A DNA stretch of 62,650 nt from a virus, in IMG/VR virus record IMGVR_UViG_3300028840_001431, positions 1 through 62,650 of that record; one strand, given 5' to 3'. The notes beneath the pieces were generated by a model. It searched no databases and was not told the origin of the DNA. It saw only the letters and a program-made list of their open reading frames with translations. The translations under genes and the position numbers were made by a program. This document shows, in pieces, positions 2,962 to 55,957 of this stretch. How positions within the stretch are numbered: position 1 is the first letter of the stretch; every line of letters starts with the position of its first letter.

Positions 2962-3876
2962 ATGTACGCTCATCAGGTTATGGAGTGGCTCGACAATCAA
3001 GCGGTGCATCCGGGGCAAATGCCGGATAACTACCGGAGAGACTTGAAATTTCTACGGGAGGCTATTCGCAAGGCCGTCAAGTATCATATGGGATTCATCG
3101 GTGATTTCTATGATATTTTCAAGCATAGAGTCCTTGGTGAGCCGCTCTTTACTGATGACGTGGTTTGCATCCCCCCTTACAATTCGATTTGGGTGGATTG
3201 GAAAACCTCCAAGAGTGCGGGGATCAAGAGGCAAGCGATATTGTGTCATCACTTCAACGATCATAGCCATCCCCATAGGCGACTTGATTTCACCCCGTTC
3301 ACGTATCAAAACCATAATGGATGGGATTGGACTTACATTCCGATCATAGCTCATGTGGATTTCGACAAGAAAGGGGAGTCAGAGAGATCTGTCAGCTATA
3401 GTTCATCTCTTACCCCTGAGGAGTGGGATCAGTACGGGAACCCCGATAAGAATGATAAGAAAGACCGCGGCCAAACAGGGGCCATCAGGCATATGGCGGT
3501 TCATATGACGGCCATGGATATGCTGTTTTCTTTCCTGAATTGTAAAAACGTCAAGACAATTCCCGTTGATCCTGATAAGAAGCTATTGAAGAAGAGGGCC
3601 AAGAGAAACAAGCTCCCCATTCTGAGATATCACGTCCTGAAGGTCACGGGAGTCAAGATCAAGCAGGATGGGACGATTGGACGGGGCAATCGAGATCTTC
3701 CCCTTCATACGGTATGCGGTCACATCAAGGACTATACCGATAAGGGCCTATTCGGTAAGATCAAGGGGCGGTTCTTCTTTGCCGCTCATCTCAGGGGCTC
3801 AGCCGATCACGGTATGGTGATGAAGGATTACGAAACAGTACCGGAGGAAAGACATGAACAGACGATCATTTGTTAA
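2962..3876 (+). CDS. Conserved-type phage hypothetical protein
   Basis: 304 residues. AGGTGATC lies 5-6 bases before the ATG. The C-terminal half (LPLHTVCGHIKDYTDKGLFG, then KGRFFFAAHLRGSADHG) matches a pattern found in phage proteins of unknown role with an R/C-G-H-x-K-x-Y motif, a G-L-F-G segment and a final H-x-R-G. Residues 200-240 are very basic. The end overlaps the following Tat-signal gene by 23 bases, so the two are probably co-translated. It may bind nucleic acid, but no catalytic motif is certain. Confidence 0.6.
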   Translation: MYAHQVMEWLDNQAVHPGQMPDNYRRDLKFLREAIRKAVKYHMGFIGDFYDIFKHRVLGEPLFTDDVVCIPPYNSIWVDWKTSKSAGIKRQAILCHHFNDHSHPHRRLDFTPFTYQNHNGWDWTYIPIIAHVDFDKKGESERSVSYSSSLTPEEWDQYGNPDKNDKKDRGQTGAIRHMAVHMTAMDMLFSFLNCKNVKTIPVDPDKKLLKKRAKRNKLPILRYHVLKVTGVKIKQDGTIGRGNRDLPLHTVCGHIKDYTDKGLFGKIKGRFFFAAHLRGSADHGMVMKDYETVPEERHEQTIIC

Positions 3877-4462
3877 GGCAATCATAGCGGTTGGAGCCTC
3901 TACCATAGTGAAACCCGCTCTTTCTCTGCTCCCCAAGGCTAAAGCCGTGAGTTCTCCGGCGAGTTCTCCAATTGGAGATTTGGAGATCCCCAAAAATGCC
4001 TTTGTAACGTCCGAGCAGATCAAGGCCATAAGGAGGTTGCTTGCTCGTGGCGAAGTGGCCTTTAATTGGCCTCGGGTCCATGGGAAGGCCTCGGTGGTCG
4101 ATGATATGTATCGACAAAACAGGCCGATAGGGCATTTCAAACACCTTGAGCTTCCAAAGGCTAAGACGGTGAGTTTCAGGCGATATGAGGAGCTTCCCAC
4201 GGTGCCTGAGCCCTTAGCTGAGGGGATGATCCCGAGTGGTGAGCGATTGGCCTATGCAGAGTTTGTCCCTTGGGATCATTACTATAATGCCGCGAAGTTA
4301 AACGAGGAATGGTTGAAGAGGTTTGAGGTTGCTTCAACCGCTTCTGAGGTCCCTCTTATCCAGCAACAGGACCTCAATAAAATGGCTAAGCGTTTGGGCG
4401 AGAACGTTGCCCGAGTGAAGGAAAGCCTTATCAAGGCATTGATCAAATCAGCAGTCAGGTGA
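3854..4462 (+). CDS. Tat-signal protein that is a truncated paralogue of the major capsid protein
   Basis: 202 residues. The N-terminus NRRSFVK followed by a hydrophobic AIIAVGASTIV stretch is a twin-arginine signal peptide, predicting export of a folded protein. Residues 60-137 resemble capsid protein residues 22-82: RRLLARG against ARLLMRG, QNRPI against QSRPI, SFRRYEELP against KFRRYESLP, PLAEGMIPSG against PLAEGIPPKG. Residues 147-163 (KLNEEWLKRFEVASTAS) resemble the capsid C-terminus (ILNQLWMARLEVAATA). The capsid middle, about 235 residues, is absent. The last 40 residues form a helical tail (KMAKRLGENVARVKE). GGAGGA precedes the ATG inside the preceding gene. It could be an exported capsid decoy, assembly regulator or structural part. 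Confidence 0.75.
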   Translation: MNRRSFVKAIIAVGASTIVKPALSLLPKAKAVSSPASSPIGDLEIPKNAFVTSEQIKAIRRLLARGEVAFNWPRVHGKASVVDDMYRQNRPIGHFKHLELPKAKTVSFRRYEELPTVPEPLAEGMIPSGERLAYAEFVPWDHYYNAAKLNEEWLKRFEVASTASEVPLIQQQDLNKMAKRLGENVARVKESLIKALIKSAVR

Positions 4463-4527: not shown

Positions 4528-5085
4528 ATGAAGATAACAAGACGCGGATTCCTGAAGCTGTTAGGCGTTGGTGGTCCGGGATTAGCGGCGACCGCTACGG
4601 CTAAGATGAACCCCGTCAAAGGCCTTGAGGCCCTATTTCGGAACCTTCCCCAAGCAAAAGGGATTAGGGATGGGCAAGTCATCCTTGGATTTGATCCTAA
4701 GGTGATGTATGGTGATTGGATGAAGTCCGGGATTATCGTAAAACCGGAGATGTATGGAGTCTATGGGCCGTGGCGACCGTCCCCGAAACCGGGAAAGAAG
4801 CCGGGAGATTTGGGGTATTATGACTTGAGCCAAGTCCCTGATGAAACGATGAGGAAGGTACGGAAGAGCATTGAAACCTTTATCCCGAGGAAATGGCGAC
4901 CCCATGTAGTCATTGACCTTTCGGCTTCGGGTGATATCATTTGGTGGAGGTATCTTCCACCGGGGATGAGTCCGATCAGGAACCAGAAGCCCCCGGTTGA
5001 TACGTTCTTCCCCGAGAAGAGGAAGTCAAAGTTGACCGGAAAGCCCTTGAGAGAGGGTGAGCGTATCTCGTATTGGGATGATTGA
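4528..5085 (+). CDS. Second Tat-signal protein, function unknown
   Basis: 185 residues. TRRGFLKLLGVGG is an almost ideal twin-arginine motif, followed by a hydrophobic stretch ending near GLAATATA, so cleavage is likely around residue 25. The mature part is basic and rich in proline and glycine (YGPWRPSPKPGKKPGD) with a HVVIDLSASGDIIWWRYLP strand pair. No cofactor-binding motif typical of redox Tat substrates is visible, and I do not recognise the fold. GAGGTAA lies upstream of the ATG. It follows the capsid-like Tat protein and precedes a Sec-exported protein, so 3854-5663 looks like an export block. Confidence 0.7.
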   Translation: MKITRRGFLKLLGVGGPGLAATATAKMNPVKGLEALFRNLPQAKGIRDGQVILGFDPKVMYGDWMKSGIIVKPEMYGVYGPWRPSPKPGKKPGDLGYYDLSQVPDETMRKVRKSIETFIPRKWRPHVVIDLSASGDIIWWRYLPPGMSPIRNQKPPVDTFFPEKRKSKLTGKPLREGERISYWDD

Positions 5086-5160
5086 GCCATTTGAAAGTAG
5101 GAACCCAAGATAGATTTTGTGAGCCTAATGACTGCTGGAGCCCTAGATAGTGTGTGAAAT
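5082..5160 (+). repeat. Five half-sites of the 36-bp repeat between 4528 and 5181 genes
   Basis: TTGAGCC at 5082, GGAACCC at 5100, GTGAGCC at 5119, GGAGCCC at 5137 and GTGAAAT at 5154 are spaced 17-19 bases, alternating as in the main array. They end 8 bases before the TTTGGAGG ribosome site of gene 5181. Confidence 0.65.
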
Positions 5161-5180
5161 CAAAACTTTGGAGGTATGAA

Positions 5181-5663
5181 ATGAAGAGAATGAATTTGAG
5201 AGATTGGATTGCTTTCGTTTGTGTCGTCATTATCCTTGCGTTTGTCCTTACGCCGATGTTTGCAAATGCTCAAAACAAGGTCTATCAAGCGGATCTTCAC
5301 TTGATGTGGGAACATTCCGAGCATCCTTCCAACATGGCCGGGGGTGGATATCGGATCTATTGGGGTCCCGATGAGGGTGGACCGTGGCCTCAGTCTAAGG
5401 ATATCGACTTTGCAACTGTGGCCCCCGGTACGCCTTTGCCGAGTGGAGTGACGACCTATGAGGTCCCTCAGATCTTGATCCCGATTGACAATCCTCAGGC
5501 CTTATCAGCGGTCACGCGGTACATAGTCATGACGGCTTGGAATCAGGGAGGAGATGAATCAGATCCATCGAATGAAGTCACGGTTCCCATGAAATTCAAG
5601 CTTGCGGGGGTCAATGCTTTGAAGATCATCTTCAAGGCACTCATTGAAATCACGATTCCATGA
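5181..5663 (+). CDS. Sec-exported protein with fibronectin-III-like domain
   Basis: 160 residues. I chose the ATG at 5181 because TTTGGAGG sits 6-7 bases upstream; an in-frame GTG at 5154 lies in a repeat half-site. The N-terminus has basic residues (KRMNLR), a hydrophobic core (WIAFVCVVIILAFVL) and an ANA-Q cleavage site, a textbook signal peptidase I substrate. The mature part (VYQADLHLMWEHS, GGYRIYWGP, RYIVMTAWNQGGDESDPSNEV) has the strand pattern of a fibronectin type III domain, common in surface or adhesive proteins. The stop overlaps the next start as ATGA. Confidence 0.7.
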   Translation: MKRMNLRDWIAFVCVVIILAFVLTPMFANAQNKVYQADLHLMWEHSEHPSNMAGGGYRIYWGPDEGGPWPQSKDIDFATVAPGTPLPSGVTTYEVPQILIPIDNPQALSAVTRYIVMTAWNQGGDESDPSNEVTVPMKFKLAGVNALKIIFKALIEITIP

Positions 5664-5944
5664 CCCGAAAAGCAAAGCCCCAAAAAGGAAGGAAGGTCGA
5701 TTTTTGGTCCTTTTGTACGGGGGCAGGAATGGGAATCTTCCTTGGACTACTCGCGGGTCAAGCCATCTATCAACCGGACACACCAAGGCCCGAGAGTTTT
5801 CGACCTGTCCAAGTGATGAGGCCTCTCCCTGATGGGAAATTTCAGGAAGGGCGAATGGGTCCGAATGGACGATTCATACCCGTTGGACCTCCAAGGGAGT
5901 TGACAGAGAAAGAAAAGGCCATGGTCCCGGCTGAATTGAGGTAA
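5660..5944 (+). CDS. Small membrane-anchored protein
   Basis: 94 residues, with an ATGA overlap with the preceding exported protein. After a basic N-terminus (TRKAKPQKGRK) a glycine-rich hydrophobic span covers residues 15-36 (FWSFCTGAGMGIFLGLLAGQAI). A proline- and glycine-rich tail follows. The basic N-terminus suggests an N-in topology with the tail in the periplasm. No known family recognised. Confidence 0.55.
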   Translation: MTRKAKPQKGRKVDFWSFCTGAGMGIFLGLLAGQAIYQPDTPRPESFRPVQVMRPLPDGKFQEGRMGPNGRFIPVGPPRELTEKEKAMVPAELR

Positions 5945-11279: not shown

Positions 11280-11876
11280 ATGAACAAACGATTTGCAATT
11301 GTAGCGTTGACGGCATTGATGGTTTTCGTTTTTGCGGGAATGGCCTTGGCTGACCCTTTCACCGGAAGGCCTCACACTTGGAGAGGTGAGCAGATTTACC
11401 GGGGAGAGATGAAGTTCAGGGGTGATAACGCGGATCTCACTTTGGAATCCGGGTCCGAGATTACCCTGACCACGGCTCCCCGATATACGACCACAACCCT
11501 TACTTGGACTGCTGGCACGGGATACACGGTTCCCTCGACCGTAAAAACCGGGGCCGTCTATCAATTCGATATCTCTTCGGCCACAAGTTCAAGTGCCGGG
11601 GGCGATAATGGCATCATGGATGTCGGCACGGCAGGGGTGACAATTCATATTCCCACCCCAACCGCAGTTAATCATGATACGATCTTCGGGCTTCAGAAGA
11701 TCGACTCCGGGACAACGGACGCTATTCTCTACTGTGCGGGCCTTCCGATCTTTTGGGCTTCGTCCGGTACAACCAATGTGAGCAAGGAAATGGATGCCCA
11801 AGGGGATATCGTTTGGTTGCAACTTAATTACAATGGTGCGGTTAGTGTCTTTGCGGTCAACGAGTATATGCATTAA
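11280..11876 (+). CDS. Sec-exported beta-rich protein inside the head module
   Basis: 198 residues. AAAGGGAGGAATAAG lies before the ATG. The N-terminus (MNKRFAIVALTALMVFVFAG) ends in an ALA-D cleavage site, a clear signal peptidase I substrate. The mature part is rich in T, S and G with alternating strands (TTTLTWTAGTGYTVPS, GVTIHIPTPTAVN), as in fibre, spike or decoration domains. Its place between portal and scaffold genes would normally predict a cytoplasmically assembled virion protein, so the signal peptide is unexpected. Alternatives are a secreted accessory factor or a displayed adhesin. Confidence 0.65.
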   Translation: MNKRFAIVALTALMVFVFAGMALADPFTGRPHTWRGEQIYRGEMKFRGDNADLTLESGSEITLTTAPRYTTTTLTWTAGTGYTVPSTVKTGAVYQFDISSATSSSAGGDNGIMDVGTAGVTIHIPTPTAVNHDTIFGLQKIDSGTTDAILYCAGLPIFWASSGTTNVSKEMDAQGDIVWLQLNYNGAVSVFAVNEYMH

Positions 11877-17094: not shown

Positions 17095-17805
17095 ATGAAA
17101 GCCCTCATCTCTTCGTTTTGTGTCCTCCTTATCATGCTTGGGGGCCTCGATCTTGCCTTCGGCGGCTCCCAAGCCACCTCCTCTTTAACAGCCGCGACAA
17201 TTGAAACCCGAGCAAGACGTGACCTCGATGAGGATACGGCCCAATATTGGAATCAGGATGACATGATCCAATGGATTGATGAGGCCGTTAGGGAGATCGT
17301 TTATACCACCAAATGTCTTGAATCCGGGACCTCTCTTATCGTTATCAAAGATAGCGTTTTCACTTATGATATTACCGGGAATTGGCTAACCGTTGAGACT
17401 GTCACTTATGATAGCGGGGTTACTGATGACCGGGATTATCTCTTCACCCTCAAAAGAATCAATCTGAGATCCCTCGGGCATAGCAAGGAAACGGGAAACC
17501 CGAAATACTTTGCTGTTTGGAATGATGATCTCATCATTGAGCCCGTCCCCGGAGCAGATCAATCAGGAACGACTCTCTATCTTTATCGAACCGATCTTCC
17601 TTCGGGCGTAACCCTCATCACAAGCCCAATCGAAACGCCCACCTATTTTGACACAGCAATCCTTGATTATGTGAAGGCCAAGGCCCTTTATAAGGATAGC
17701 AAGGAAGTCCGGGGTGACTACCATATGTCACGGTTCAAAAGCCGGATTGCTTCATGGATGATTCATATGTTGCCGGGAGGGTTGTCCCTGACCGAAGAGG
17801 ATTAA
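17095..17805 (+). CDS. Head-tail adaptor-like protein with an N-terminal Sec signal
   Basis: 236 residues. TTAGGAG precedes the ATG. Residues 1-23 (MKALISSFCVLLIMLGGLDL, then AFG) look like a signal peptide with cleavage near AFG-G. The mature part (TIETRARRDLDEDTAQYWN, DDMIQWIDEAVREIVYTTKC, FDTAILDYVKAKALYKDS) matches phage gp6-type adaptor proteins, which normally bind the portal in the cytoplasm. A signal peptide on such a protein is very unusual. Either the start region is a fusion, or the neck assembles on or across the inner membrane. Confidence 0.65.
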   Translation: MKALISSFCVLLIMLGGLDLAFGGSQATSSLTAATIETRARRDLDEDTAQYWNQDDMIQWIDEAVREIVYTTKCLESGTSLIVIKDSVFTYDITGNWLTVETVTYDSGVTDDRDYLFTLKRINLRSLGHSKETGNPKYFAVWNDDLIIEPVPGADQSGTTLYLYRTDLPSGVTLITSPIETPTYFDTAILDYVKAKALYKDSKEVRGDYHMSRFKSRIASWMIHMLPGGLSLTEED

Positions 17806-17806
17806 A

Positions 17807-20449
17807 ATGATACGCCTCAGATATGCCATTCTTGCAGTCCTAGCGGGATTCTTGGCTTTTGCTTATAACAATGTGTCATTAGGCCAAGATGACGATGAGC
17901 AGAAATGGGCAATAACTGACAAGACAAAGACCCCGAAAGAACGCCATCGTGCAACTTCATTCGCTCTTGCCGGGAAGCTTGACAGGACAAGCCCGTTTGT
18001 TGCTTTGGATGGGAGCAATATCAAGGAAGCCGTCAATATGCGGCGACCCGCCCCCGGCTTGCCCGTTGGTTGGAAGGCTCGGGGAGGATGCACTCCTTAT
18101 AATACCACCGCAATAGCATCAGCCGAAGTTAAGGGCCTTGCTCAGCTAATCGTTACCGAAACAGGCGTTGAGAAGTTTTACGCTCAATGCAATGATGACT
18201 TTTATGTTTCCTCAGGCACTCCCCCTGATACCGTTACCACTTTCGGGACAAAGCTTCTTGACCTTGCCTCGGATGCGGGGCCAATGCATTGGGGAAAGAT
18301 TGACGATGAGATCACTTGTGCCGCCTCAGGCCAAACCCCTTGGGCTACCTCGGGGGGCTCAACCTACCCTGACTCCTTCCTGACTCAGCATACCACCGGA
18401 ACCACGGCTTACAATGATGGAAGCATGTTGGTTGCCGATGAATTGGACACCACTTCAATCGGTATGCCTAACCATTCAGGAACCTCGGAATATGCCTATC
18501 TAGGGTTTCACAGAAGGCTTGACGGGGCCGAGCTTCAGTTAATCGCCGGAACCACCAACATAATGGCCGCTAAGACGGGTGTTTCAGCCTATACGTCTTC
18601 AGGGTGGACCTCATGCACGAACATCGTTGACGGTACGGCTGATGGCTCAGGCGTAACGACTCTCTATGAATCCGGCTACATTGCATGGACAAACCCCGCA
18701 AACATGATCCCATATGTTTTGCCGGGGACGAAGAACCATCTCTTTTGGTATCGATTCCGCGTAACCGCCGATGTGACCGACAATGTTCAGGTCAAGAGGA
18801 TCTTGGTTGCCGATATCTGCGAAGAGGTTACTCACTTATGGTCAGGACTCTATGAGATCGTTCTTGGAGCCCTAGAATCTCATACGACCGGATTTTACGA
18901 TTGGACCCCTGAGGTCACAGATGGAAGTGATGTCGAATACATGGATGCCGATATCACGAATTCTCAGGCCATCTATCTCGGGTTTGCTCAGCCTGTCATG
19001 GGCTTCTTCATGGAAATTACCTCTGACTCGGGGAACGTGGGGACAGCTACGGGATGGAGGGTCTATTATTGGGACGGGGATGAATCTGATTGGTCTGAGA
19101 TAACCGGAGTGACCAACGATAGCACGGGTGAGGGATACCCGCTTCAGCATACCGGGGTCATGCAATGGGACACCAACGGAATCAGGCCTGATCGAAGGCA
19201 ACTCGCGGGGCGGTTGACTCCGTTCTATTGGTACAAATGGGAGCCGATTGTAAGTCTTGCCTCAGAAACGATCAGCCTTTATGAGATCGGTGGGATAGTT
19301 GATCCGAATGGGGTCCGGGATATCAGCAAGTACGAAGGGGTGATGCACTACAATGGAAGGGCCATGTATTGGCCGGGGCAAGACTATAAGAACGGGATGG
19401 ATTACTCTCAAGAGTATGAACCCCAAATCATAAACGGCCCCAAAGCCGGAAGCACGGGCGGGATTTTCGGTCCCGGTCGAGTTCACCTAGCCCTTGAATA
19501 TTCCTCGTATGGAATCGTGTTTACAAAGGACCCCTATCGAACCTATGTGCTTCAGGGCAAGGTTCCGGGTGAATTTGATGAGCTTTGCATATCAACAAAG
19601 GTTGGGGCTATTGGGCCTCACGCGGCTTGCGTTGTCGAGGATGGGATTCAAGCCTTTGCCAAAACCCGAATTGTTCATGCTGTCTTTTTCGTGGCTCAGG
19701 ATGGTCTATATTTGACCGATGGGATGACAGTCACGAAGATCAGTCAACCGATATCGGATTATTGGGACACCGGGGCAACCCCTTACATCCAACCCGAGTA
19801 CGCCTATAAATGCTATGTTTGGTATAATTTTATTGACAAGACGGTTCACATCGGGGCTCCCGTTAATTTTGAAAACGATGATACGCCTCAGACGACTTGC
19901 AACGTTGAACTCATTTACAGTCCGATTGGGGAGGAATTCTATGACAGGTACGTGAGGAATAGTCCTGCCGCTTGCGGCCTCAGTTTAATCGGCAATGATG
20001 ACCAGAGGTTGACATACATTGGTGATTACTCAGGGACGGTACATCGGCTCGATACCGGAAAAAACGACAATAATAATGTCATCACCCACCATATCAAGAC
20101 CGCCGATTTTAACCCATTAGAAGGCAAGCTTGAAGATGCCTTAAATCATAAATTCAAACTTCGTGCGGTCAAGATCAAGGCGAAAGCTCAGACGGTGGGA
20201 GTAGCTGAAATATTGGTTTACCCGGACGATGCCGATTCGGGTGTGACCCCTCCCGGCGGGACTATTTCCTTAGTAAATTCAGGGTACAAGCTTGCTCAAG
20301 GTAGGACCTTGATGGGGAGAGATATTACATACCTGATGGAGACTAATTCCATAAGATTCAGAAGCGGAGTTTCGACCGCTGAACTAGATACTGTGATGGA
20401 ACTCTATGGTTATACAGTCGATTATTACGAGGTCAGGCCGACTCACTAG
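17807..20449 (+). CDS. Tail nozzle-like protein with an N-terminal Sec signal
   Basis: 880 residues. The first residues (MIRLRYAILAVLAGFLAFAY, then NNVSLG-Q) fit a signal peptide. The body resembles large podovirus nozzle or tubular proteins with a beta-propeller: IKEAVNMRRPAPGLPVGWKARGG-type start (residues 72-95), and a later segment with GIVFTKDPYRTYVLQG, FFVAQDGLYLTDGMTVTKIS. It would form the distal part of the short tail. Its end overlaps the next gene by 44 bases. The combination of nozzle and signal peptide repeats the pattern of the adaptor gene upstream. Confidence 0.6.
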   Translation: MIRLRYAILAVLAGFLAFAYNNVSLGQDDDEQKWAITDKTKTPKERHRATSFALAGKLDRTSPFVALDGSNIKEAVNMRRPAPGLPVGWKARGGCTPYNTTAIASAEVKGLAQLIVTETGVEKFYAQCNDDFYVSSGTPPDTVTTFGTKLLDLASDAGPMHWGKIDDEITCAASGQTPWATSGGSTYPDSFLTQHTTGTTAYNDGSMLVADELDTTSIGMPNHSGTSEYAYLGFHRRLDGAELQLIAGTTNIMAAKTGVSAYTSSGWTSCTNIVDGTADGSGVTTLYESGYIAWTNPANMIPYVLPGTKNHLFWYRFRVTADVTDNVQVKRILVADICEEVTHLWSGLYEIVLGALESHTTGFYDWTPEVTDGSDVEYMDADITNSQAIYLGFAQPVMGFFMEITSDSGNVGTATGWRVYYWDGDESDWSEITGVTNDSTGEGYPLQHTGVMQWDTNGIRPDRRQLAGRLTPFYWYKWEPIVSLASETISLYEIGGIVDPNGVRDISKYEGVMHYNGRAMYWPGQDYKNGMDYSQEYEPQIINGPKAGSTGGIFGPGRVHLALEYSSYGIVFTKDPYRTYVLQGKVPGEFDELCISTKVGAIGPHAACVVEDGIQAFAKTRIVHAVFFVAQDGLYLTDGMTVTKISQPISDYWDTGATPYIQPEYAYKCYVWYNFIDKTVHIGAPVNFENDDTPQTTCNVELIYSPIGEEFYDRYVRNSPAACGLSLIGNDDQRLTYIGDYSGTVHRLDTGKNDNNNVITHHIKTADFNPLEGKLEDALNHKFKLRAVKIKAKAQTVGVAEILVYPDDADSGVTPPGGTISLVNSGYKLAQGRTLMGRDITYLMETNSIRFRSGVSTAELDTVMELYGYTVDYYEVRPTH

Positions 20450-21884
20450 CATATGCCTTGTGCTCTTCTTCCTCATTGCGGGGGTGTCTGACGGGAAGAT
20501 CATTCGTCCGGGCTCGGGTGAGGAATATGAGACTTTCACCGAGAGGATCAGAAAGACCCACGAATCGGATATCAAGGCTAGGTTCCCGAAAGATGAAATT
20601 CGACCTGATACTGTGCATGGGGTCAAGGAGAGTCTTGATGCATTTAGGAAAGCATCGAAAGATAAAAAGCCTTGGGCTCATAACGACTTTAACGAGATGG
20701 AGGAAATTGCTTGGCCCCATTTCGATATCAGTTTCCCAAATTGGGACTATCCCGACATGCCTTGGTGGCCGGGGTTTGATCCATGGCCAACGGGGCCGTA
20801 TGGGCCTCAGCATCCTGACGATATCCTTGACGTTCCGGGTTGGTATTTACACGGTTGTTGGATTTCATGTTTTCCGGGGATTATCGAGTGCGTTGATGGA
20901 GAAGCCGAATGTGTTATCACGACTTCACAAATCATATGTGGGATTGATGTAGTCGGACAGGTTCAGGATTGGAGGTTAGAGGGGAACAACCTTATCATCG
21001 TTCCGGCCATCTCGGCGGTCGATAATAGCGTTATCGAAGTCGAGGTTTGTACCTGTCCCCTTGATTGGCAATTAAAAGGCGGTTGTTGTGATGCTCGGAT
21101 CATTATCAACTGTGAGGAAGAAGAGGAAGATATATGCCTAGGGGCCACTCCAACAATCGTTGCAGATGCCACGACCGAGGCGGCTTATGGTGATATTTGC
21201 TCAGGTGGAAACACGTCTGGAACCTTCAGCGTTCAGAGTGGAGGCCTCGCGGTTCCACCATATGAGTGGACTCTCACCTGTGCGGGGTCAAATTTCACTC
21301 TCGATGGTCAGGCTTGCCCCGCCACGGCTGAGACTAGTTCTGATGGGTCCTCGGTCACGGTTGCTTCATCAGGGGCATGTGGAGGGGCCACTTTAAGGGT
21401 CGAGGATGCTTGTGGTGAAACCGATACATATACGATCATGTGCTCAGATTCGGGGTCTTGGGTCACGATTTATAGCACGGCCCTTGGAGATCCTGAGTCA
21501 GACGCATGTAATATGCCGGGAGAATCAACTCATATCGTGGCGGGTCAAATGCGGCTTGATGCCGGATACCGAAGGCAATACCATAATTACATCACGGTTG
21601 GGGCCGGGGCTGTCCAATGCGTCGGATCAGGGTGCGGAAGCCCACCCCTCAATGATTGCCAGTATGATGGATCTCCGGGACGTTGTTGCGGTGGTGGGTG
21701 TCCCTCATGGGGTTGCTATGATTGCCTTTGCGGAAACGGGACCCTCGTAGGGTGTGCGGCCCTTACTTTCAGGATTTGTGATATGTGCGGTTGTGATGAT
21801 TGTTGGCATATAACGGGTGGGTATTATCAATGTGCCTGTAACTGCTCAGTTGACTTCGTTTATCAGGAATGGCAATGCCCATAA
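20406..21884 (+). CDS. Exported protein with 36 cysteines
   Basis: 492 residues. The N-terminus has R-S-G-R-L then TSICLVLFFLIAG, a signal peptide or anchor. I count 37 cysteines, 36 of them beyond the signal, clustered at residues 135-275 and in the last 110 (for example PGRCCGGGCPSWGCYDCLCG). The middle has immunoglobulin-like strands (VPPYEWTLTCAGSNFTL, SDGSSVTVASSGACGGATLRVED). This density implies disulfide bonds or metal clusters; disulfides would need the periplasm. It overlaps both neighbours, so it belongs to the tail operon. It could be a tail tip or adhesion protein. Confidence 0.6.
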   Translation: MVIQSIITRSGRLTSICLVLFFLIAGVSDGKIIRPGSGEEYETFTERIRKTHESDIKARFPKDEIRPDTVHGVKESLDAFRKASKDKKPWAHNDFNEMEEIAWPHFDISFPNWDYPDMPWWPGFDPWPTGPYGPQHPDDILDVPGWYLHGCWISCFPGIIECVDGEAECVITTSQIICGIDVVGQVQDWRLEGNNLIIVPAISAVDNSVIEVEVCTCPLDWQLKGGCCDARIIINCEEEEEDICLGATPTIVADATTEAAYGDICSGGNTSGTFSVQSGGLAVPPYEWTLTCAGSNFTLDGQACPATAETSSDGSSVTVASSGACGGATLRVEDACGETDTYTIMCSDSGSWVTIYSTALGDPESDACNMPGESTHIVAGQMRLDAGYRRQYHNYITVGAGAVQCVGSGCGSPPLNDCQYDGSPGRCCGGGCPSWGCYDCLCGNGTLVGCAALTFRICDMCGCDDCWHITGGYYQCACNCSVDFVYQEWQCP

Positions 21885-24698: not shown

Positions 24699-27600
24699 AT
24701 GGCCTACTTTACAACGAAGTTGTCAGATATTGTGCCGGGAATCGATGACACCAACCCCACTAGGCACTTAGTCCAACCCGCTCAACAACCGAGTGCATCT
24801 CAGCAAATCGAGAGTTCCTTGATGAGTCGAAACGACCGGGAATATCTCGATCAGTTGCGGCGGGCTCATGTGCCTAAGGGTAGGCCCCACCTGATGGGAG
24901 CCGTAAAGAGTACCGCTCTTGAGGCTCTTGGAGGTTTGGGAGGCCTTTTGGAGATCCCCGGCGAAGTCATTTCTCCCCTAAAGCAAGCGGGTGAGAACGT
25001 CAGGAATTTCTATTCTCAGATTGCCGATGAGGACCCCGATGTTCAGGAATACACCAAATCAGTCATCGAAGGGCGGGAACCATGGGTTGGAGAATTCGCG
25101 GGCTCCCTTGGTCCAACGGGTATGGCCGCTCTTCTGCATACCGTTCCGCTTGCTGGTCGAGCATTGGCAACGGCTTATTTCTATAAGCTCAACAAAGAAG
25201 AGGCTGAACAACTTGCACTCGACAAGGGAGCAGATCCGCAAAGAGCCCTATGGACCGGAAGGGTTGCCGGGGCCATCAATTCAGCCTTGGATATATGGGG
25301 ATTAGATCGGATTTTTGCGGCCTCTCAACCCGCTAAGAATATTGGAAGATTCCTTCTCAATCTTGGGATGGCCGGAGTTTCCGAGGGTGCAACTGAGGGC
25401 CTTCAGGAAGTCATCTCCGATATGTCGTCCGAGTTTGCGGCAAAGCCCCCTGAGCAGGACTTTGGTGAGTTTATCTCCGGGATGGAGCAAAGGCTCCCAA
25501 CCTTCTATAATCGTTTCAAGGAAGCCGCCCTTATCGGTGGTCCCATGGGTGCTCTATTTGGTGGAGCCGCCGGGGGAGCCGCCGCTCTTCAGAGGCGGGG
25601 ACGTGCAAAAGAAGCCGAGAGGCAAAGAGTACAGACCGAGCAAGAGGCACAAGAACGGGCTCAGGAAGCCGCCCAAGACCAAAAGCGTACAAACATAGCC
25701 GATGCCGTCCAAATGGCCCTTGTGGCCGAACCGGGGGGTCCTAGAGACTTTATTTTGAAGGGGGCCTTGATTCCGGCTATGACCGAGCAAACGGGTCCCG
25801 CAACCCCGGCCCAACGTCGAGCCTTGCCGGAACCTCAAAGAGCCCTCCCTGAACCTCAGAGGATGCTCCCTCATTCCACTATCCCACCAATTGAAGCTGG
25901 TCCTTTCCCGCTAGTACCGACTGAACCGCGTAGGCCTACCGAGGCCCCCACAACGGTCTTGCCGATAGGTGAAGAGGCCGTTGAGGCGGGTCCCTACCCC
26001 ATAGTTCCTACCGAAGGACCAAGAACAGATATCGGAAGAGCGGGCCTTGCTCGGAGAGTTCAGCAAGTTGCCGGGATAGGAGAACCGACCGGGGAAGTCA
26101 TAGAGATGGCTCAACCCGCCGAGGAGGAAGCCTTTGAACCCGTCGAGCCCACGGTTGAGGTCGGTGAAGCCGCCGAGGTTCCCGAGCTTACCAAAGAAGA
26201 GGTTGATCTTAAAGAGGCCTTCAGAAAAGCCCAAGAGAAAGCCGCCGCCGCTGAGCCCAAGCCGGAGAGGGAGAGAACTCGATTTGATGACATTGCCGAT
26301 GAGCTTGGGATTACATATGACGGCCCCCATCAGGGCCTAGAGCAGTTCACCACCGATAGCGGATATACGTTCTCACTCCCGCCGGGGCAAGTAACCATTA
26401 CATCAGTTCGTAAGGCAATGCCGGAAGATGAAAGGCCCGATTTTGTTCCCGGCCCTGAGCGTGAGGGAGCCGAGCCGCTTGAATTTACCGAGCCGAAACT
26501 TCCCGCCGATGTTCACGGCATTGTCATGGCTGACCCCGTTGACCCTGATAGGCAAGTCTTTTACCGAAGGGAACAGGCCGGATTTCTTCCAGAGTATGAC
26601 ACAGACGATGCCGATGCCGCTGAGCTTCTTGGGAAAAGGATAGCTTTGAAACGTGGGGTTGGGCGACCTCACAAATATGGGAATCTTATCAGGATTCTTG
26701 AGAGGAAAGGCATTCCTTACCGATTGCTTGGAAAGGATGAAACCGAGGATTTCTCTGATAAGAGGATCTCAGGCATTGGGAGCATTGATTACATTCAGGA
26801 TGAATACGCGGTCAAATATCAGGGAATCAATGAAGATGGAACCCGCCGATGGACCTATGAGGGTCAGGTTGAGGAGATAGCCGGGAAAGAGTTTACAACA
26901 AAGGGACTTGATGAGGATGAGGTTGCCGCTGAAATAGGGAAGCTTGAAGATGAGTATATAGCCGAGCAGACCGAAGCAGAGGAAGCCCTCCCGCCTGAAG
27001 AGGAGGTTGAGGTTGAAGAAGAGCCGGAAGGAGAAACCCCGCCGAAAGAGCCTAAGCCCGAGCCAACGGCTGAGGCAAAACCCGACAAAGAAGCAACCTT
27101 AAAGATACTCAGAAGGCGTCAAGAGGATTGGAATAAACAAGCGTTGAAATATGAAGGGGGGAAAGGGATACCCGTAGGGGCCGAGGGGGTTCAATATCGT
27201 TGGGCCTCTGATGCAATGATCATCATGCAAAAGGCGGTTGAGGCAGGAAAGACGATTGATGAAGCCGCGACCGAAGCCAAAGCTACGGCCCGTGGGTGGA
27301 TAGAGAAACATAATGCAAGACGGCCCAAAGATATCAATTGGAAGAGATGGGAGGGGGCCGCTGATACCTATATTGACGATGCCGTTAGGGAAGTCAAGCG
27401 GTTGGAGCCGGAAGCAATCACCGAAGAGCCTGAGGAAGTCACCGAAGAGGCTCCCGAGGTTCGGGAGGTTGCCCCTGAGGATGTCGTCAATGATGCAATG
27501 AAGAGAGTTCAGGAAGCCGCCGAGAATGCCGGGGCCGATTACTCAAACACCCCCATGATCGAAAAGGCCAAGATTGCCGATGTTCTTTGGGCCAATACCA

Positions 27601-30600
27601 TATTGACCGAAATCGAGGATGCCGCCGGGAATGAATATTTCTCTGATGGGCATTGGGCAATCAAGAAAGACCAAAAGAAAGCATACACCCCGCTTCAGAA
27701 AAGAGCAGATAAGGTCAAGAGCATTCAGCCTTATAGGGGTGAGATGAAGGTCAAACTAGAAGATATCATTAGCACAGAGAACAACCTTCCGCTTACCTAT
27801 GTTGGAACTACCCAAGAGGAAAACGCTGATCCTCAGGCTTGGTATGTTGACGGGATGGGAAACCTCAGGGCTATCAATGAAAACATAGGGACCTTTTTCA
27901 AAAGCAGAATTGGGGCTTTGAACTTCCGGGGAGATCCGGCTAAGGATATCTCATTTAATATGTATGCAGGGGATGAGCTTGTTGGTGTGATTATGCCAAT
28001 GAGAGCCCCCTTCCCCGTGGAGGAGGTTCAGCTTCCTGAAGGGGCCGAGATCGAAGAGCCCGAAATAGAGAAGGGTGAAGCCGCCGAAGGGGAGAAGCCC
28101 AAGAAGAAGAAACGAAAAGGACGTTGGACCGATACCGGGAGAGAGATCCACGGGAAACGTGCTTCTAAGGATAAGAGTGAACGAATTGAAGCCATCAACG
28201 TTGAGCTAGACTCAAACATCGATGAGAAAGCCGACCCTGAGGCCTTCCTCAAGGCCATCAATAAACTCACCAACAAATCGAAGATCCTGAAGCTTGACCT
28301 CCCTGAGGGGGCGACTCCGGGGACTCTTAGGTTCCTCAAGACCTTCCGAAATAAGATCAACGGTTTCAACCGTTGGGCGGCTAAGGAGTACAAGAACTGG
28401 CAGGATTCAACCGACAAGGGGGCCATCCTAAGGCATCTTGAGGCCAATCCAGAATATCAGGTCAATGTCAAGAATCAGGCCTCTGAATACATAGCAACCC
28501 TTGAGCTTCTTGAGGAAGCCATCGAAGAGACTTCGACTGTCCAAGAGGCTCGGGATAAGCTTTGGGAATTATTCGTTGAAGATCCCGCGATTGACAAAAT
28601 GAGAAAGGTGTATCCGAGCAGATTCAAGTTTACCCCGTTCGGTGAGTCAATCGTTGGAATGTTTGCTCAGGCTTTTCCGGGGGCCGATCAATGGACCCGG
28701 AGTTCAAGGAACGCCTTCAAGTGGACTTTCGGTAAACATGCTGATTCCGAGATGGCCGATGAGGAGGGGGCTGATAGAAATCAGGCCTTTGAGCATCGAC
28801 CGGGAAGGCGTTTTAACTTCATGGATATCGAGGATGACCCAAATAAATACAGGAATGGCAAGGACGTTGACCCGAAGACTCTTGAAAAAGTCTTTGGGTT
28901 TACCGGGATTAAGTGGGGAAATTGGGTAAGCGGAAGAGAGCAACAACACGTTGCAAATCTGTTTTATGACGGCTTTCACGAACTAATGAAGGCCATCGGC
29001 GGGGCTCCCGCAAGGGCTATTTCGGTTCCCGCGACTGATCCGGCCTTGGCTATTGGCTTTGGAGGTTGGGGCCGTGGTGGAAGGACAGCCGCCCATTACC
29101 AACCATCAGATCACTTCATCCACCTTACCAAAACAAAGGGTGACGGTTCTGTTTCTCATGAATGGGCTCATTCTTGGGACAAAGGTTCCAAGATTGACAT
29201 GAGCAACAATAAAGACGAAAGCCTCAGGGATATTGATCCACTTAAAGATATCAAAATAGCCCTCAGGACAAAGTATAACTTTGAAGCCATCAGGGAAGAG
29301 GCCTATCAGCTTCTCAAGGGGTTACACCACGAAACAAGGCAATCAAGAAAGAATCGGGTTGACAAGGCAAAGGCATGGCTCAGGTCACATTGGAAGCAGA
29401 TATCAGAGGAAGAAACTCAATTCTATCGGGATGCAAAGAAGCTTGATGCCGGGAAAGACCCGTATTATCGGACAGAAGTTGAAATGTTTGCACGGGCCTT
29501 TGAGTCATGGATTGCTGATAAGATTGGTTCTGATGCACTATTCATCGTTGATCCTGAGTTTGTGAGCGGTAGCTATATCAAGGATCACTTCAATTGGGAC
29601 GTTGATGCTTACCCGAGTGGTGAGGAACGGGAAAGACTGAACTCACTCTTTGAGAATCTATTCCGAAATATTACATGGGACAAGAATGGGATTCCGACCG
29701 TTGGGCCTGATTTTGTTCCCCTCTTCATCAATACCCAACGAGAGGTTGAGGCCGAGCTTGAAAAGTTCCTTGAGAAGCTTGATGAAATCTATAATGCAAT
29801 TTATGGCGGCAAGCCTTCCAATGACGGGCTTTACTGGTATGCCTATCTCGACACCTCCCGAGCCCCCGGAATGCAACCCTCTGGAATGGTTGCCTATGAC
29901 GATAAATATAAAGTAGCCGAGCAGATTGAAGAGCATGAAGAACGGGGCGGCATTGGAGCCATAGGGTATTCTGGACCGCTGATAGCCGATGACGTTGTTG
30001 AGATGGGCCTTGTCCCGATCAATCACGACAAGAACGATGATACCCTTTATCTAGGGGGAGCAAATGGCCAAACTTCAGAGAATTGGACAGATGGCAATGG
30101 AGCATTGGGGGAAGTATCGTCCCAAGATGGTAAGCAGTTTGAAGAGAAGGGGACTATTGTTACCGATCCTGAAGGAAGTGGAAGAAGCTTGGGAGAGGGG
30201 GATGACGGACTTGGTATCAACGAAGGGGGTGAATCCTCGGATAGCGGAGGAACTGATGAATCGGGGGCTGATATTTCTGCCGGAGGAACCCGAGCCGATC
30301 CCGGAAATGGTCCGGGGGCTGATCCCGCTAGAATAAATGAAGATTATGCAATAGGTCCGAGGGATTATATTGATGCCGATCTCGATCAGGTTAGAACCTT
30401 CACCAATGCTATCTCAGCCATTAGGATTCTAAAGGAGGTTGAAGAGGGACGATATCCGGCAACTGAGGGGGAGCAAAGAATCCTCCAAGCCTTTCCGGGT
30501 TGGCAAGCTATCAAGGCCGAGCTTGATCGGTATTCGTATGGAGCCATTCAAAACCGTCATGACATGATCTCCGGGATGCTCAGCCGGAGTGAGATGAACT

Positions 30601-33600
30601 CGGCAAGGAAATTCAAGAACGATTCCCATGCAACCCCATTGCCTGTGATTGATGCCATATGGGAAACGCTCCAAAGGTTCGGCTTTACGAGTGGCCGAAT
30701 CCTTGACTTTGCTATGGGTAAGGGCTCGATTTTTGGGGCTATGCCTAAGTCCATGAGGAAAACTTCTGTCCTGACCGGAATTGAACCCGATCAGATCCAA
30801 AGGAGAATTGCCAAAAAGCTTTATCCTAATCAGTACATAACGGATACCAGATTTGAAGAAACTCCCTTAGCAAACAATTACTTCGATCTAGTTTTCACCG
30901 ATATGCCCCATACAGCCAATCGGTTGAGCAAGCCTGATCCCGAGCATAATCCTCTTGGGTGGGAGTCTGATCCTCATTGGCTCAATAAGGCAATCAATCA
31001 CACGCGGGAGGGAGGTCTAATTGTAGCCATTGCGGAAACGGAGTTGATGGATGCTCCTAACAATGCCGATGCCCGGAAGAATATCGGTGATAAGGTTGAC
31101 TTCCTTGGGGCTATTAGGCTTCCGAAACAGTTATATGGGGATATGAGCAAGGATGTCATCTTCCTTCGCAAGAAAGGCGGGGGAGGTGTCGAGATAAAGA
31201 AGAAGGCATGGGAAAAGGTGAACGCCGGGGCTCGGATTCCCGTCAATGAGTATTTCGTTGAAAATCCCCAAATGGTTCTAGGTCAACTTGAACTCGACAA
31301 TGACCCGATATCGTACAGAATAACGAAGTATGCCCTCAGCCAAGACAAAGCTGATAACGTTGAAAGGGAAATCAACGATCTTGCAACCACCGATCTTCCG
31401 ATAAACATCTATTTTGAGGAGATCCCCGGAACCGAGATAGATCTTCTCAAGACTATCCCTGAGCCTGACTTTGTAAAGGATGGGGCCTTTGTAATTGAAG
31501 GAAAGAAGCTTTATCAAAGCATTGGAGGGAAGCCCGTTGAGGTGAAGGATTCTCCCCGTATTCGTGGCATGGTCGGAATGAGGGGAACCATCAGGGGGTT
31601 GCTCAGGTCCTATGCCGCCGGGGAAACAAAAGCCAAAACGGAGAAATGGAGGAAAGCCCTCAATAAGCAGTATGATGAATTTGTCAAAAAGTTCGGCTTC
31701 GTGAATGCGGTTCCGAATGTCAAGGCATTCATCCAAGATCCTGATGCCCCTCTCCTTCTCACCCTTGAGCGGTGGGATCATGAGCGGCAAAAGTCTCTAG
31801 GTAAAACCGCAATCTTTGAGCCGGGATTCTTCAAGCCTGTTACCCCTCCAACCTCGGCTAAGAATTCATCGGAAGCCCTGAATCTCTCGTTAGCATGGAA
31901 GAGCCGAATTGACTTCCCGTGGATGACCCGTTTGAGCGGGGTTCCTCGGGATCAATTGATTAGCGAATTGAAGGGCAAGATCTATGATGATCCAGAGGTG
32001 GGGTGGGTAACGGCTGATGAATATCTGAGCGGCAATGTGAAGCATAAGTTGAGAGTTGCTCAGAAGATGGCCGAGGTCAACAAGAAGCAATATGGTCCGA
32101 ATGTCAGGGCCTTGAAGAAGGTCATCCCCGCCGATTTGCAATCCCATGAAATCAACGTAAGGCTCGGGGCGGCATGGGTTCCCCCTAAGGTTATTGGGGA
32201 GTTCATGAAAGACCTCACCTTTGAGTATAATGTCAAGGCCGAGTATAGCCCCGTTCTCGGGAAATGGCAGATCAAATTTACGGGAGCCAGCAAAGCCGCC
32301 GCTAAACGAAACAAAGATTCAGCGGTAAGAAGCACAGAGGCAACCTCTGAATGGGGGACCTCTGATGTCAATTTCTTCGATCTCCTAGGGTATGCCCTCA
32401 ATGGTGGGTTCCCCGATGTGAAGAGGGTTGCAGTCGATTCAAAGGGAATGCCTCACACAGATGAGAATGGCAGAAAGATCATGGTTCCTGACGTTGAGGC
32501 TACTGATGCCGCAAATTACAAGCTTGAACAGATCAAAGAAAGGTTCTCTCAATGGGTATGGGAGGATCAGGCTAGGCTTAGGAATCTGACGCGGATCTAC
32601 AATGAAAAGGTCAATGCCTATGTGAAGAGGGTTCACAAGGGGGATCACCTCGTATTTCCGGGCAAAGTCCCAAATGCAATCTTTGATTTTATGGATCACC
32701 AAAAGAATGCCGTTTGGAGATTCCTACAGCAAGGGAGTGTATATTTTGCTCATGAGGTTGGGACTGGGAAAACCTTCTCAATTATAGGTTCAGTAATGGA
32801 AGCCCGAAGGCTTGGGCGGGCGAAGAAACCCATTGTTGCCGTCCAAAATGCCACGTTCGATCAGTACAAAAGGGATTGGGCCACGGCATATCCTGCCGCA
32901 AATGTGCTATTTGCCAAGATCCCAAAGAAGGAAGGCCCCGAAAGGAGTGCCATCCTGAAGAAGATTTCATCAGGAGATTATGACGCAATTGTTGTCAATC
33001 ACCACTCCTTGAGTTTCCTTGAGGTGAGCCCAACCGCTCAGATTGAACAACTGAGGAAGGAGCAAGCCGAGCTTAATGAGTCATTGGGAATATTGAGCTT
33101 GCAGGGAGCCGGAGAGGAAACCATAAGGAAGATATCAGGTGCGGTTGCAAGGTTGGAGGATAGGATTGAATCTCTATCCGGGGCTCCAACCACCAATGAA
33201 GTCTATTTCGACAACATTGGGGCTGATATGATTGTTGTCGATGAGGCTCACAGCTTCAAAAACCTCGATATCAAAACAAGCTATGGGAATGTCAAGGGAA
33301 TCGACTCAGCGGGGGCTCCATGGTCAATGAATCTGTACCGGAAGATTCAGTATATCCGAAACAGGTACGGAAAGAATATCATCCTAGCCTCAGGAACTCC
33401 GCTAACCAATAGCGTGGGTGAGCTTTACACCATTGCAAGGTACGTTCAGCCCGATATGCTTGCCGCCCATCACCTCCAAGGCTTCGATGCATGGGCTAAC
33501 ACCTTTGGCTTGATCTCCAACGAATCGGAACTAACACCAACCGGGACGGGCTATGTGAATTCAACCCGATTTAAGAGCTTTGTCAACATTCCCGAGTTAG

Positions 33601-36600
33601 TGAACATTTTTCAGCAAAACGTTGACCTAATCAGAGTGACCGAGAGCAAGAAGGAAGCTCAGGAAAAGGATGAGTTTATTTGGATTCCTCGACCGAAAAT
33701 CAAGGGAGGCAAGCCTCAGACTATCATTGTTCCGCAAAGTGATCATGTTAAAGAGTTTCAGAGGGAGCTTGTCCATCGAGCCCTTGCCCTGAAGAATGAC
33801 CGTCAGGCCCAATGGGACGGCAAACAGGACGCCATGACTCGGATGATCAAGGAAGGTCGGACCATGGCCATTGATGCACGGCTTCATGATCCGAAGCTTT
33901 CCGATCAGCCTGACACAAAGCTGAATTATGCCGTGAAAGAGATCAAGCGTATTTACGACAAGAAACATAAGGCCCACGATTGGGATCAGGGCGGGAAGGA
34001 ATACACCGAGGATAAGGGAGTTGTTCTAGTCTTTCTCGATATCGGGACTCCGGGAGGGGCATTAGAAAAGAGAACGAAGTTTTCACCTTACGGGGATATG
34101 AAGAAGAAGCTAATCAAGGCGGGTATCCCTGAGAAGGAAATAGCCTTCATTCATGACGTTCCTGACAAAGAGGGACGAAGAAGGCTCATGGGACAGGTCA
34201 AGGAAGGCAAGATCAGGGTCCTGATGGGTAGCACCAACAAGATGGGAATCGGTGTCAACGTCCAAACTCGGGTTGCCGGGATTCTTCATGTTGACGTTGA
34301 TTGGAACTATGCAAACTATGAGCAGAGAAACGGGAGGGGCCTCAGGTACGGGAATAATATCGATGAGATAGAAATCATCAATATCGGGACAGCCGGGACG
34401 GTGGATGCCTTCATGTGGGAGGTGGTTGCCCGCAAAGCTCATGTTCTTGGTCAGGTCCTCTCAATGAATCCAAACCTCAGGGAAGTGGAGGATATCAGTC
34501 AGGATGCAAGCAATGCTTACGAATATGTGAGTCACCTTGTCGATGACAAGCTTGCCAAGAAAAAGGTTGAACTCGATAGAGAGGTGAGGATTCTCAGAAA
34601 TGCTCGATCTTCACATCAGGCCGGGACGAACAGGGCTCGATTCAGGGCCGCAACAATACCGGAAGAGATAGCGGCGAATGAAGCAAACGTTGAGGCCTTG
34701 AATGAGCAATTGGAAAAGCACAAGAATATCACCCATGTTCAGATAGGTGATGAGCCCTTCTCTCTCAAGAAGAAGGGACCGGAAATCACCAAGAGGATCA
34801 AGGAGAAATGGGACAAAACTAGCAAGGCAACAAAGGAGAAGCTTAAAAAAGATCCGACCCTGAAAGCTTCGGTTGCCTTGCTTGGTGGAGAGGTCAAGGA
34901 TACTCAGGGTGATGGCAAAAGTTTCGTGGGCAACGATATCAAGATTGTCATTCAATGGGGTCCTGTCACCAAGAAATGGCTCATGAGGTTGGACGGTGAG
35001 GGTGTGAGCAGTATAATGGATGACCTAGGTAAGAGCGTTTCCCGGTTGATATCCAGAATCAAGGCCCCCATCCAAAGCGAGATAGATTCCCTCAACGAGA
35101 ACACCCAAAAACTCAATGATGAGCTTCCTAAGATTGCGGCTAGGATTGATGCCCCCTTTGAGAAGGAGGAGGAGTTCAGGGTAAAAGACGCGGAGAGGCG
35201 GGACCTTGAAAAACAACTGCTCGACAAACAGAGGAAAATGGAGAGGGAGTTTGCTGAGCAACAAAAGAAGAAAGGCAAAGAGCCAACCCATCTAGCCGTT
35301 GATGAGGCCCCTTATACTTTCAGCAAGCGTCAGATGATTAGTGCGAAGAGGGTTGCAAAGCTGATCCCGAAATGGCTGAGATCAGCCGGATTACCCAAGG
35401 AAGTCATCGATAAGATCAACGTGAAATTACAGCCATTCGTTGATTTAACGGACCTCGATATCGAGCAAACCCTAACCTCTTACGGGGAAATGGGGGTTCC
35501 GGTCACAAACATCCTCGGGGCCACAACCTTTAATGAGTACAAAGCGATAATGCAACTCTCTCTTGCAATGCAGAATCAGGCAAAGCTTGAGGAGACTGTC
35601 ATCCATGAGGCATGGCACATTATCAAGGGGTGGTTGATGCCGAAGGCTGACATCGATGCCATTGGCAAACACTACCGGAACGAAGAGGAGGAGGCTAGGG
35701 CTTTTGCAAGGTTTGTTCTTAGATACCGAAACCGACTCAAAGGGGTTCCTTCACCGATACGCCGGATTTTCATGAAGATCAAGCGGGCTCTTCAGCTTAT
35801 TGGGAATGGGCTTAGGGGGAGAGGGTTCACAAGGCCTGAGGATTTCTTTGGAACGGCAATGGTGGGGGCCTACTCAAGGCCGCATTATGTGAGGGGCAGG
35901 ACGGCTGATTTCGGTGGGACTACCATAGCTTTGGCCGGGGAGCCTAATCCGGTTCCTTGGGCCTCACATCAACTGATTTATGCTGTCCGAAACAATTATG
36001 ACAAAATGCCCCGGAAGGTTCAGTCTCTCAAGAATTGGGTGAGGAAACAAGCAAAGCCCTCTGAAATAGAGTGGCTTGATGTCGATGCAATCATCGATGA
36101 AGTTCAGAAGGATGGGAAAGTTCAGCCAGAATCCTTGCTTATGGGGCTTGCTAGAAACCAAGTCCACCTTCAGGAAGTTCTCAAGACTAGCCCTCTTGAC
36201 GCTACGGAAGACCCTTGGAAGGGCGAAGATATCTATTATGATGAAGATGGGAACGTTGCTGGTCATCCTAAGGTGTATGAGCCTTGGTGGTTGGATTATT
36301 GGGCAAGGGACGTTGATGAGCTTAGGAAAGAGGTGGAATCAAACCCGAATCATGAGTTGCATTTCACGGCGGCTATAGATCCAGATATGTCTTGGGAAGA
36401 ATTCAAGGCTTTCAAGAGGGCCGCTGATCGACCGCCGATATTGAATACCCCTAATCGATATCAGGCAAACACCTCGATAGGGACGATTGATGCTAACCCC
36501 GTTGTCGAGGTAAAAGACGGGAAAGCCTATGTAAAAAAATATGAGTATTTCGTTGAGGGTTCCAAGGTTTTTGAATCACCTGATCCGAGATTCAAGGAAA

Positions 36601-55503: not shown

Positions 55504-55775
55504 GATCGGAAGAATACAGGGAATTCATTCAGCATAGGCGTTGCGTTATTTGCAACAATCTCCCGCCGAATCAAGCTCACCATCATAGTGAGAATAATCA
55601 GGGATGGGGGACGAAACCACCTGATAGCTTTTGCGTTCCTCTCTGTTATGGGTGTCATCGATTTATAGAGGATCACGGCCTTGACGAAGTTAATAGGGCC
55701 GCATTTAATCTATCAATCGTTGCAAACCTGACTTTATTTCTAATAAAACTCAAAGAAGAAGGGAGGTTAAAATAA
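55479..55775 (+). CDS. HNH/NinG-like zinc-binding endonuclease
   Basis: 98 residues. I chose the ATG at 55479, preceded by GGAAGGGTGG; a longer frame starts at 55449. CVIC (22-25), NQAHHHS (31-37) and CVPLCYGCHRF (52-62) form an HNH-like beta-beta-alpha metal fold with structural zinc. Such proteins accompany recombination genes in many phages. Confidence 0.65.
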   Translation: MDGNSLTLRSEEYREFIQHRRCVICNNLPPNQAHHHSENNQGWGTKPPDSFCVPLCYGCHRFIEDHGLDEVNRAAFNLSIVANLTLFLIKLKEEGRLK

Positions 55776-55957
55776 TGTTCGGAATAGGAGTCCCTGAGTT
55801 ATCGATCATCCTGATTATCGTGATAATCCTTTTTGGGGCCAAAAGGATTCCGCAAATCGGGAAGGATCTCGGCAAGGGTCTGAAAGAGATGAGGAAAGTA
55901 GGAAAGGAACTCAGGCCCGAATGGAAGGACGATGACGATGAAACCAGACCTAGTTGA
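55775..55957 (+). CDS. tatA: TatA-family twin-arginine translocase subunit
   Basis: 60 residues. A short N-terminus and VPELSIILIIVIILFGAKRI is the classic TatA membrane helix, with the conserved FG hinge at 20-21, then the amphipathic helix IPQIGKDLGKGLKEMRKV and an acidic tail. It would oligomerise in the inner membrane as the pore component and needs host TatC to function. GGGAGG precedes the ATG. It overlaps the previous stop by one base. The same genome has two genes with Tat signal peptides. Confidence 0.9.
   Translation: MFGIGVPELSIILIIVIILFGAKRIPQIGKDLGKGLKEMRKVGKELRPEWKDDDDETRPS

Follow-up and report, generated by a model that had tools for sequence, protein, structure and literature searches.

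A putative Tat-targeted, internally deleted paralogue of the major capsid protein in an SU10/N4-like podophage

The capsids of tailed phages are regarded as purely cytoplasmic. The capsid sensors known so far also act in the cytoplasm, where rival phages assemble. In phage T4, the vertex protein gp24 is a homologue of the capsid protein. It is a second subunit with a complete HK97 fold and no export signal. The substrates of the Tat pathway, for their part, are normally exported folded. The island SaPIbov5 encodes Ccm, a complete homologue of the capsid protein that is incorporated in the shell and redirects helper capsids (PMC8569155).

The window analysed here is the whole stretch of 62,650 nucleotides of the virus record IMGVR_UViG_3300028840_001431. 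Direct repeats of 144 bp stand at the termini of the record, which is consistent with a complete, circularly permuted phage genome of ~62.5 kb. The portal, the adaptor and the capsid are encoded by genes of the SU10/N4-like podophage type. In the late morphogenesis block, with the terminase on one side and the portal on the other, lies a small ORF that we call the mini-capsid. Its features and the gene of the major capsid protein (MCP) are as follows.

3843 to 3847, + strand: Shine-Dalgarno sequence GGAGG of the mini-capsid ORF (from the sequence)
3854 to 4462, + strand: mini-capsid ORF, 202 aa, with a Tat-like signal, a segment of the MCP N-arm/E-loop, a segment of the MCP last strand and a new C-terminal helix
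3854 to 3946, + strand: putative Tat-type signal peptide, residues 1-31, with an NRRSFVK core and an AKA site (predicted by eye; Pfam sub-threshold; unlisted by NCBIfam)
4031 to 4051, + strand: RRLLARG, residues 60-66, matching ARLLMRG of the MCP (residues 21-27, end of the N-arm helix)
4076 to 4261, + strand: residues 75-136, homologous to MCP 25-80, with the E-loop up-strand (49-55) and the E-loop tip PLAEG..P
4262 to 4342, + strand: residues 137-163, homologous to MCP 311-337, the last P-domain strands
4343 to 4459, + strand: residues 164-202, a helix by prediction; a weak alignment, given by MAFFT only, would place it on the MCP spine helix
13243 to 14265, + strand: MCP, N4-gp56 type, HK97 fold (model and Foldseek match to the phage N4 capsid, E 5e-20)

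A sequence-only reading had placed the ORF at 3854-4462, and both coordinates and frame are correct. It starts with ATG at 3854 and overlaps the upstream gene by 23 bp. The coding potential is +0.24 bits per codon in frame and negative in all five other frames. The codon usage equals that of the MCP, as in active genes, and the frame is still open at ~55% divergence from the capsid protein. An assembly chimera as the source of the gene was considered and rejected, in view of the intact frame, its own ribosome-binding site, the 38-46% identity to the MCP and the terminal repeats of the record. Positions 2002-2464 form an apparently non-coding stretch of ~460 bp. It holds ~15 spaced, degenerate elements (TGRAACCC / GTGAGCC) at intervals of roughly 15-40 bp, and such elements also occur at 2935 and 5119-5136.

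The same reading described a shortened copy of the capsid protein, made of capsid residues 22-82 and the last capsid strand, with roughly 235 residues missing between them. Our comparisons bear this out. In blastp against the phage's own MCP, mini-capsid residues 75-136 match MCP 25-80 (38% identity, E 6e-11), and residues 129-163 match MCP 303-337 (46% identity, E 1e-7). The two matches are collinear, and the deletion comprises ~230 residues (about MCP 81-310). The Smith-Waterman score of the pair is 112, against 58 for the best of 2,000 shuffles. A chance likeness of the C-terminal block to the last capsid strand was considered and rejected, as the block beats 5,000 of 5,000 shuffles. With an HMM built from 45 related MCPs, the mini-capsid scores 52.6 bits (E 7e-16) over two domains, and the best of 3,000 shuffles 7.4 bits. 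Among the 440 ORFs of the window, it forms with the MCP by far the strongest paralogue pair. Thus blastp, paralogue ranking, conserved sites and the family HMM agree on a common ancestry with the N4-gp56 MCPs.

In a blind NCBIfam scan, the sole match of the mini-capsid is TIGR04387 (N4-gp56 capsid; E 3.9e-5, 23.1 bits), over residues 96-135 only. The cut-off of this family for a full-length match is 60 bits. The match is sub-threshold because only a fragment is compared, and the mini-capsid is to be classed as a derived fragment, not as a member capsid protein of TIGR04387. The own MCP ranks second among 105 MCPs in similarity to it, so the duplication most likely happened within the clade of this phage. 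Judged by sequence, the mini-capsid is a real and maintained gene, a diverged paralogue of the capsid protein of this phage with an internal deletion. A different alteration of an MCP gene was seen in a Verrucomicrobiota MAG contig (L103, 6540-8306). There, the gene is split just past the E-loop by ~700 bp with a homing-endonuclease-like ORF, and this insertion looks like a self-splicing intron.

The MCP model is confident (pLDDT 86.6). Mapped on it, what the mini-capsid retains of the E-loop is the first strand (49-55) and the tip; it also retains the end of the N-arm helix and, past the deletion, the last P-domain strands (310-334). It has lost the spine helix (105-131), the A-domain and the second E-loop strand. 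The elements kept are those that contact neighbouring subunits in the HK97 fold. Conversely, the spine helix and A-domain, which a capsid subunit needs, are absent (about residues 81-310), so the mini-capsid cannot serve alone as a capsid subunit. The global MAFFT alignment pairs its C-terminal helix with the MCP spine helix; local searches give no support to this pairing. An AlphaFold2 model of the mini-capsid, with MCPs as a shallow alignment, reached a pLDDT of 44 and is uninformative.

A Tat signal had also been read at the N-terminus of the mini-capsid (MNRRSFVKAIIAVGASTIVKPALSLLPKAKA). By eye, it shows an RRxFxK core, a moderate h-region broken by one lysine, and an A-K-A site. Pfam TAT_signal gives 14.2 bits against a cut-off of 22.7, and the mini-capsid is not among the matches of NCBIfam TIGR01409 (Tat signal). 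The signal is plausible by its motif; the profiles are equivocal, and the genomic context described below, with TatA and the adjacent Tat protein, is firmer support. We consider it probable that the N-terminus is a Tat signal and that it targets the ORF product to the Tat pathway.

The related loci, 1.78 Mb in total, contain seven Tat-like ORFs when a Shine-Dalgarno sequence is required and 12 without this filter. Of the seven, we judge only the one at L111:3107-3307 to be convincing. The window has two, side by side. The chance of such an adjacent pair is 6e-4 if one per 1.78 Mb is real, and 0.03 to 0.07 with the raw counts. The L111 ORF encodes a protein of 66 aa whose Tat-like signal (MKRREFIKSIGALALAPLACLLGG) is a textbook one, and lies in the terminase-portal interval of a related phage. 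No tatA was found in the L111 record.

The window also contains the following export-related genes.

4528 to 5085, + strand: second Tat-signal protein, 185 aa, MKITRRGFLKLLG...ATATA (NCBIfam TIGR01409, 19.0 bits, above the cut-off of 16.7)
5181 to 5663, + strand: Sec-signal protein, next in the cassette (sequence features)
5660 to 5944, + strand: small membrane protein, last of the exported/membrane cassette (sequence features)
55775 to 55957, + strand: phage-encoded TatA, 60 aa (Pfam PF02416, E 1.6e-15; NCBIfam tatAE, 53.7 bits against a cut-off of 53.9)

The TatA has a single TM helix, the FG motif and the amphipathic helix of TatA/E proteins (Pfam 56.5 bits against a cut-off of 21). It lies ~10 kb from its proposed substrates. 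TatC was not found in the window phage, so the TatC of the host would be needed. TatA was absent from the 69 other records searched (36 + 33), mainly phages with a related capsid. The gene at 4528-5085 adjoins the mini-capsid ORF. Four neighbouring genes, from the mini-capsid to 5944, have export or membrane features.

Viral tatA genes were also sought with an exact-pattern motif scan of 2.9 million viral contigs, whose counts are therefore lower bounds. It gave 14 stretches, with a TatA in 10. A Tat-signal ORF lies close to tatA in eight of these 10 contigs (L131, L133, L134, L135, L136, L137, L138 and L139). Six of them were counted automatically. L139 and L137, below threshold or with a non-ATG start, were added from the ORF scan and by eye. 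A scan that requires a Shine-Dalgarno sequence missed several tatA neighbours and found 4/10; removing this filter gave the six. In L142, whose TatA is identical to that of L133, the sequence ends 195 bp past tatA. The pairing is in very large excess over background even when collapsed to lineages, with a tally that is partly by eye and with some contigs interrelated. Taken together, window 55775-55957, L130-L139 and L142 show a viral tatA, usually with a small twin-arginine-signal gene nearby, as a recurring module without TatC. This gene pair is a separate lead that is easy to test. A wider proposal is that some phages operate Tat export as a programme of their own, from a phage tatA and dedicated RR-signal substrates. 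In this lineage, one substrate would be made from the capsid protein, and this capsid-derived module would reach the periplasm or cell surface in folded form and act on virions outside the cytoplasm. We hold this wider proposal to be doubtful.

Signals of the Sec type are also present on virion-type proteins.

11280 to 11876, + strand: head-module protein with a Sec signal (conserved in the homologues of L104, L108, L109 and L122)
17095 to 17805, + strand: SU10-type adaptor with a Sec signal (PF24175, E 4e-15; domain from residue 32, past the signal; signal kept in L108, L109 and L122)
20406 to 21884, + strand: cysteine-rich protein of 492 aa with a Sec signal (sequence features)

The signals of the head-module protein, the adaptor and their homologues have clear A-x-A sites. 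With a home-made predictor, signal-like genes amount to 8/47 in the window and 52/940 in the relatives (p = 0.006). This clade seems to send virion-type proteins beyond the cytoplasm. Over the virion module, Sec-type signal peptides were noted at 11280-11876, 17095-17805, 17807-20449, 20406-21884, 40261-41094 and 41108-42013. The window also holds a single ORF of 5182 aa (24699-40247) with an LPD1 domain in its N-terminal third; its product is apparently an injected polyvalent protein. In L109 (13257-16524), three SU10-adaptor paralogues stand in tandem, each with a signal peptide, and FG-GAP repeats are fused to the third.

We tentatively read the mini-capsid as an accessory protein that binds capsids; it would reside in the periplasm or at the inner membrane and meet virions at lysis. 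The mini-capsid would carry a Tat signal, and the phage TatA would boost the Tat flux late in infection. This flux would serve the mini-capsid and the adjacent Tat protein. The capsid-derived module, kept in the periplasm up to lysis or located at the inner membrane, may then bind the virion shell; this is the weakest step. That it binds the shell through the retained contact elements has, in our judgement, slightly less than an even chance. This reading fits a clade in which further head and adaptor proteins carry export signals. Export is strengthened by the phage TatA, by an adjacent protein above a curated Tat cut-off and by the pairing of tatA with Tat-signal genes in other viral contigs. 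On the other hand, it is weakened by a signal below the Pfam cut-off, unlisted in NCBIfam and with a lysine in the h-region. The Tat route is also weakened because Tat normally exports folded proteins and the model of the mini-capsid, from a shallow alignment, has a pLDDT of only 44. The ~10 kb between tatA and its substrates, and the lack of a signal on the mini-capsids of two related contigs, weaken it further. If this holds, the envelope would serve some phages as a late compartment for parts of the virion.

The sequence-only reading had proposed a search for the same gene in other phages. It brought two comparable mini-capsids, reached by a scan with an alignment, but neither carries a signal peptide.

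L109, 4510 to 5037: mini-capsid ORF directly upstream of the portal gene
L108, 2492 to 2905: mini-capsid ORF directly upstream of the portal gene

The exact gene had no match in IMG/VR by direct pattern search. By tblastn in named phages, only weak capsid-like matches appeared. Single-sequence scans with the portal, TatA and terminase gave no relatives. L108 and L109, of the same clade, agree in gene order: the terminase is followed by a 211-aa protein, the mini-capsid, the portal, a head protein, the scaffold and the MCP. As in the window, each mini-capsid is a separate late gene with a capsid E-loop fragment in the terminase-portal interval. They differ in the absent signal, in a fused coiled coil with a lysine-rich tail, and in a likeness to the window mini-capsid confined to the E-loop. 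More precisely, the L109 protein (175 aa) has the E-loop block (KGTTLKFRRYDPLPPCTEPYTEG) and then a coiled coil. The latter resembles small coiled-coil proteins that precede the portal in L104, L105, L122 and others. The window and L109 proteins align over 23 residues only, in the E-loop, and so may be independent. At least one conversion of a capsid fragment into a gene of its own, and perhaps two, took place in this clade. Among these genes, a putative export signal was found in the window phage only, so export is no defining feature of such capsid fragments.

These signal-less proteins upstream of the portal suggest another explanation, a capsid-assembly factor that works in the cytoplasm, close to portal or scaffold. 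At most, the hydrophobic N-terminus would be an anchor that tethers assembly to the inner membrane. The inter-subunit elements retained and the position in the late morphogenesis block agree with it. Against it stand the RR core followed by A-x-A, the curated Tat signal next door and the phage TatA, as well as the short alignment with the L109 fragment, which may be independent. We consider this explanation rather unlikely.

The mini-capsid could also be an evolutionary relic. It would be a decaying, functionless capsid duplicate that recombined behind a signal peptide. The failure to find the exact gene elsewhere in IMG/VR or in named phages points this way, as does the lack of a confident fold. 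However, both blocks preserve residues that are conserved among capsid proteins. The mini-capsid keeps 21/27 of the family-conserved sites and 17/54 of the variable ones (Fisher p = 9e-5), a comparison in which slow residues are always easier to align. This preference, together with normal codon usage, makes it unlike a decaying relic, and coding potential, a strong ribosome-binding site and the open frame also speak against decay. The pattern argues for selection on capsid-type contacts over decay, and a relic is unlikely.

A host-directed role is less probable still. The mini-capsid would be an exported envelope modifier, for example in superinfection exclusion, working with its neighbours (4528-5944), and the capsid piece would be a reused stable segment. 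The four adjoining genes with export or membrane features are in line with it. Likewise, the Tat-signal proteins of the other tatA-bearing contigs are small and unrelated, which suggests envelope functions. Nevertheless, a mere spacer would not need the capsid-conserved residues kept in both blocks.

The decoy or assembly poison against rival phages proposed at first, or a bait for capsid-sensing immunity, is very improbable. Ccm, a homologue of the capsid protein, does redirect helper capsids (PMC8569155), but it is a complete HK97-fold protein built into capsids. A Tat-exported product would leave the compartment of rival assembly and of the known sensors. Nor is the mini-capsid a decoy for incoming phages, whose capsids stay outside the cell.

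Our preferred reading, an exported accessory protein, can be set beside the known systems. The statement that no example had been described agrees with our search. In open-access full text, with most subscription papers outside its scope, neither a phage-encoded TatA accompanied by Tat substrates nor an exported paralogue of a capsid protein was found. Compared with the N4-gp56 MCPs (TIGR04387, PHROG 1357, Pfam PF25209; solved phage N4 capsid 9e99/9lbz), mini-capsid residues 75-163 correspond by homology to two distinct blocks and share the RR, E-G, P, W, R and E-V-A positions. The mini-capsid lacks ~230 residues of these proteins and has, in addition, a new helix at the C-terminus and a putative signal at the N-terminus. 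The nearest described case is SaPIbov5 Ccm, as a second MCP-derived gene alongside the helper capsid. However, Ccm has the complete HK97 fold and no export signal, and a redirector of its type is a complete homologue in shells. The mini-capsid consists of two blocks only, a fragment behind a Tat-like signal. Finally, the window phage resembles bacterial Tat systems (PF02416, TIGR01409) in combining RR-signal proteins with a TatA subunit. It differs from them in being viral, in lacking TatC and in having one putative substrate derived from a capsid protein.
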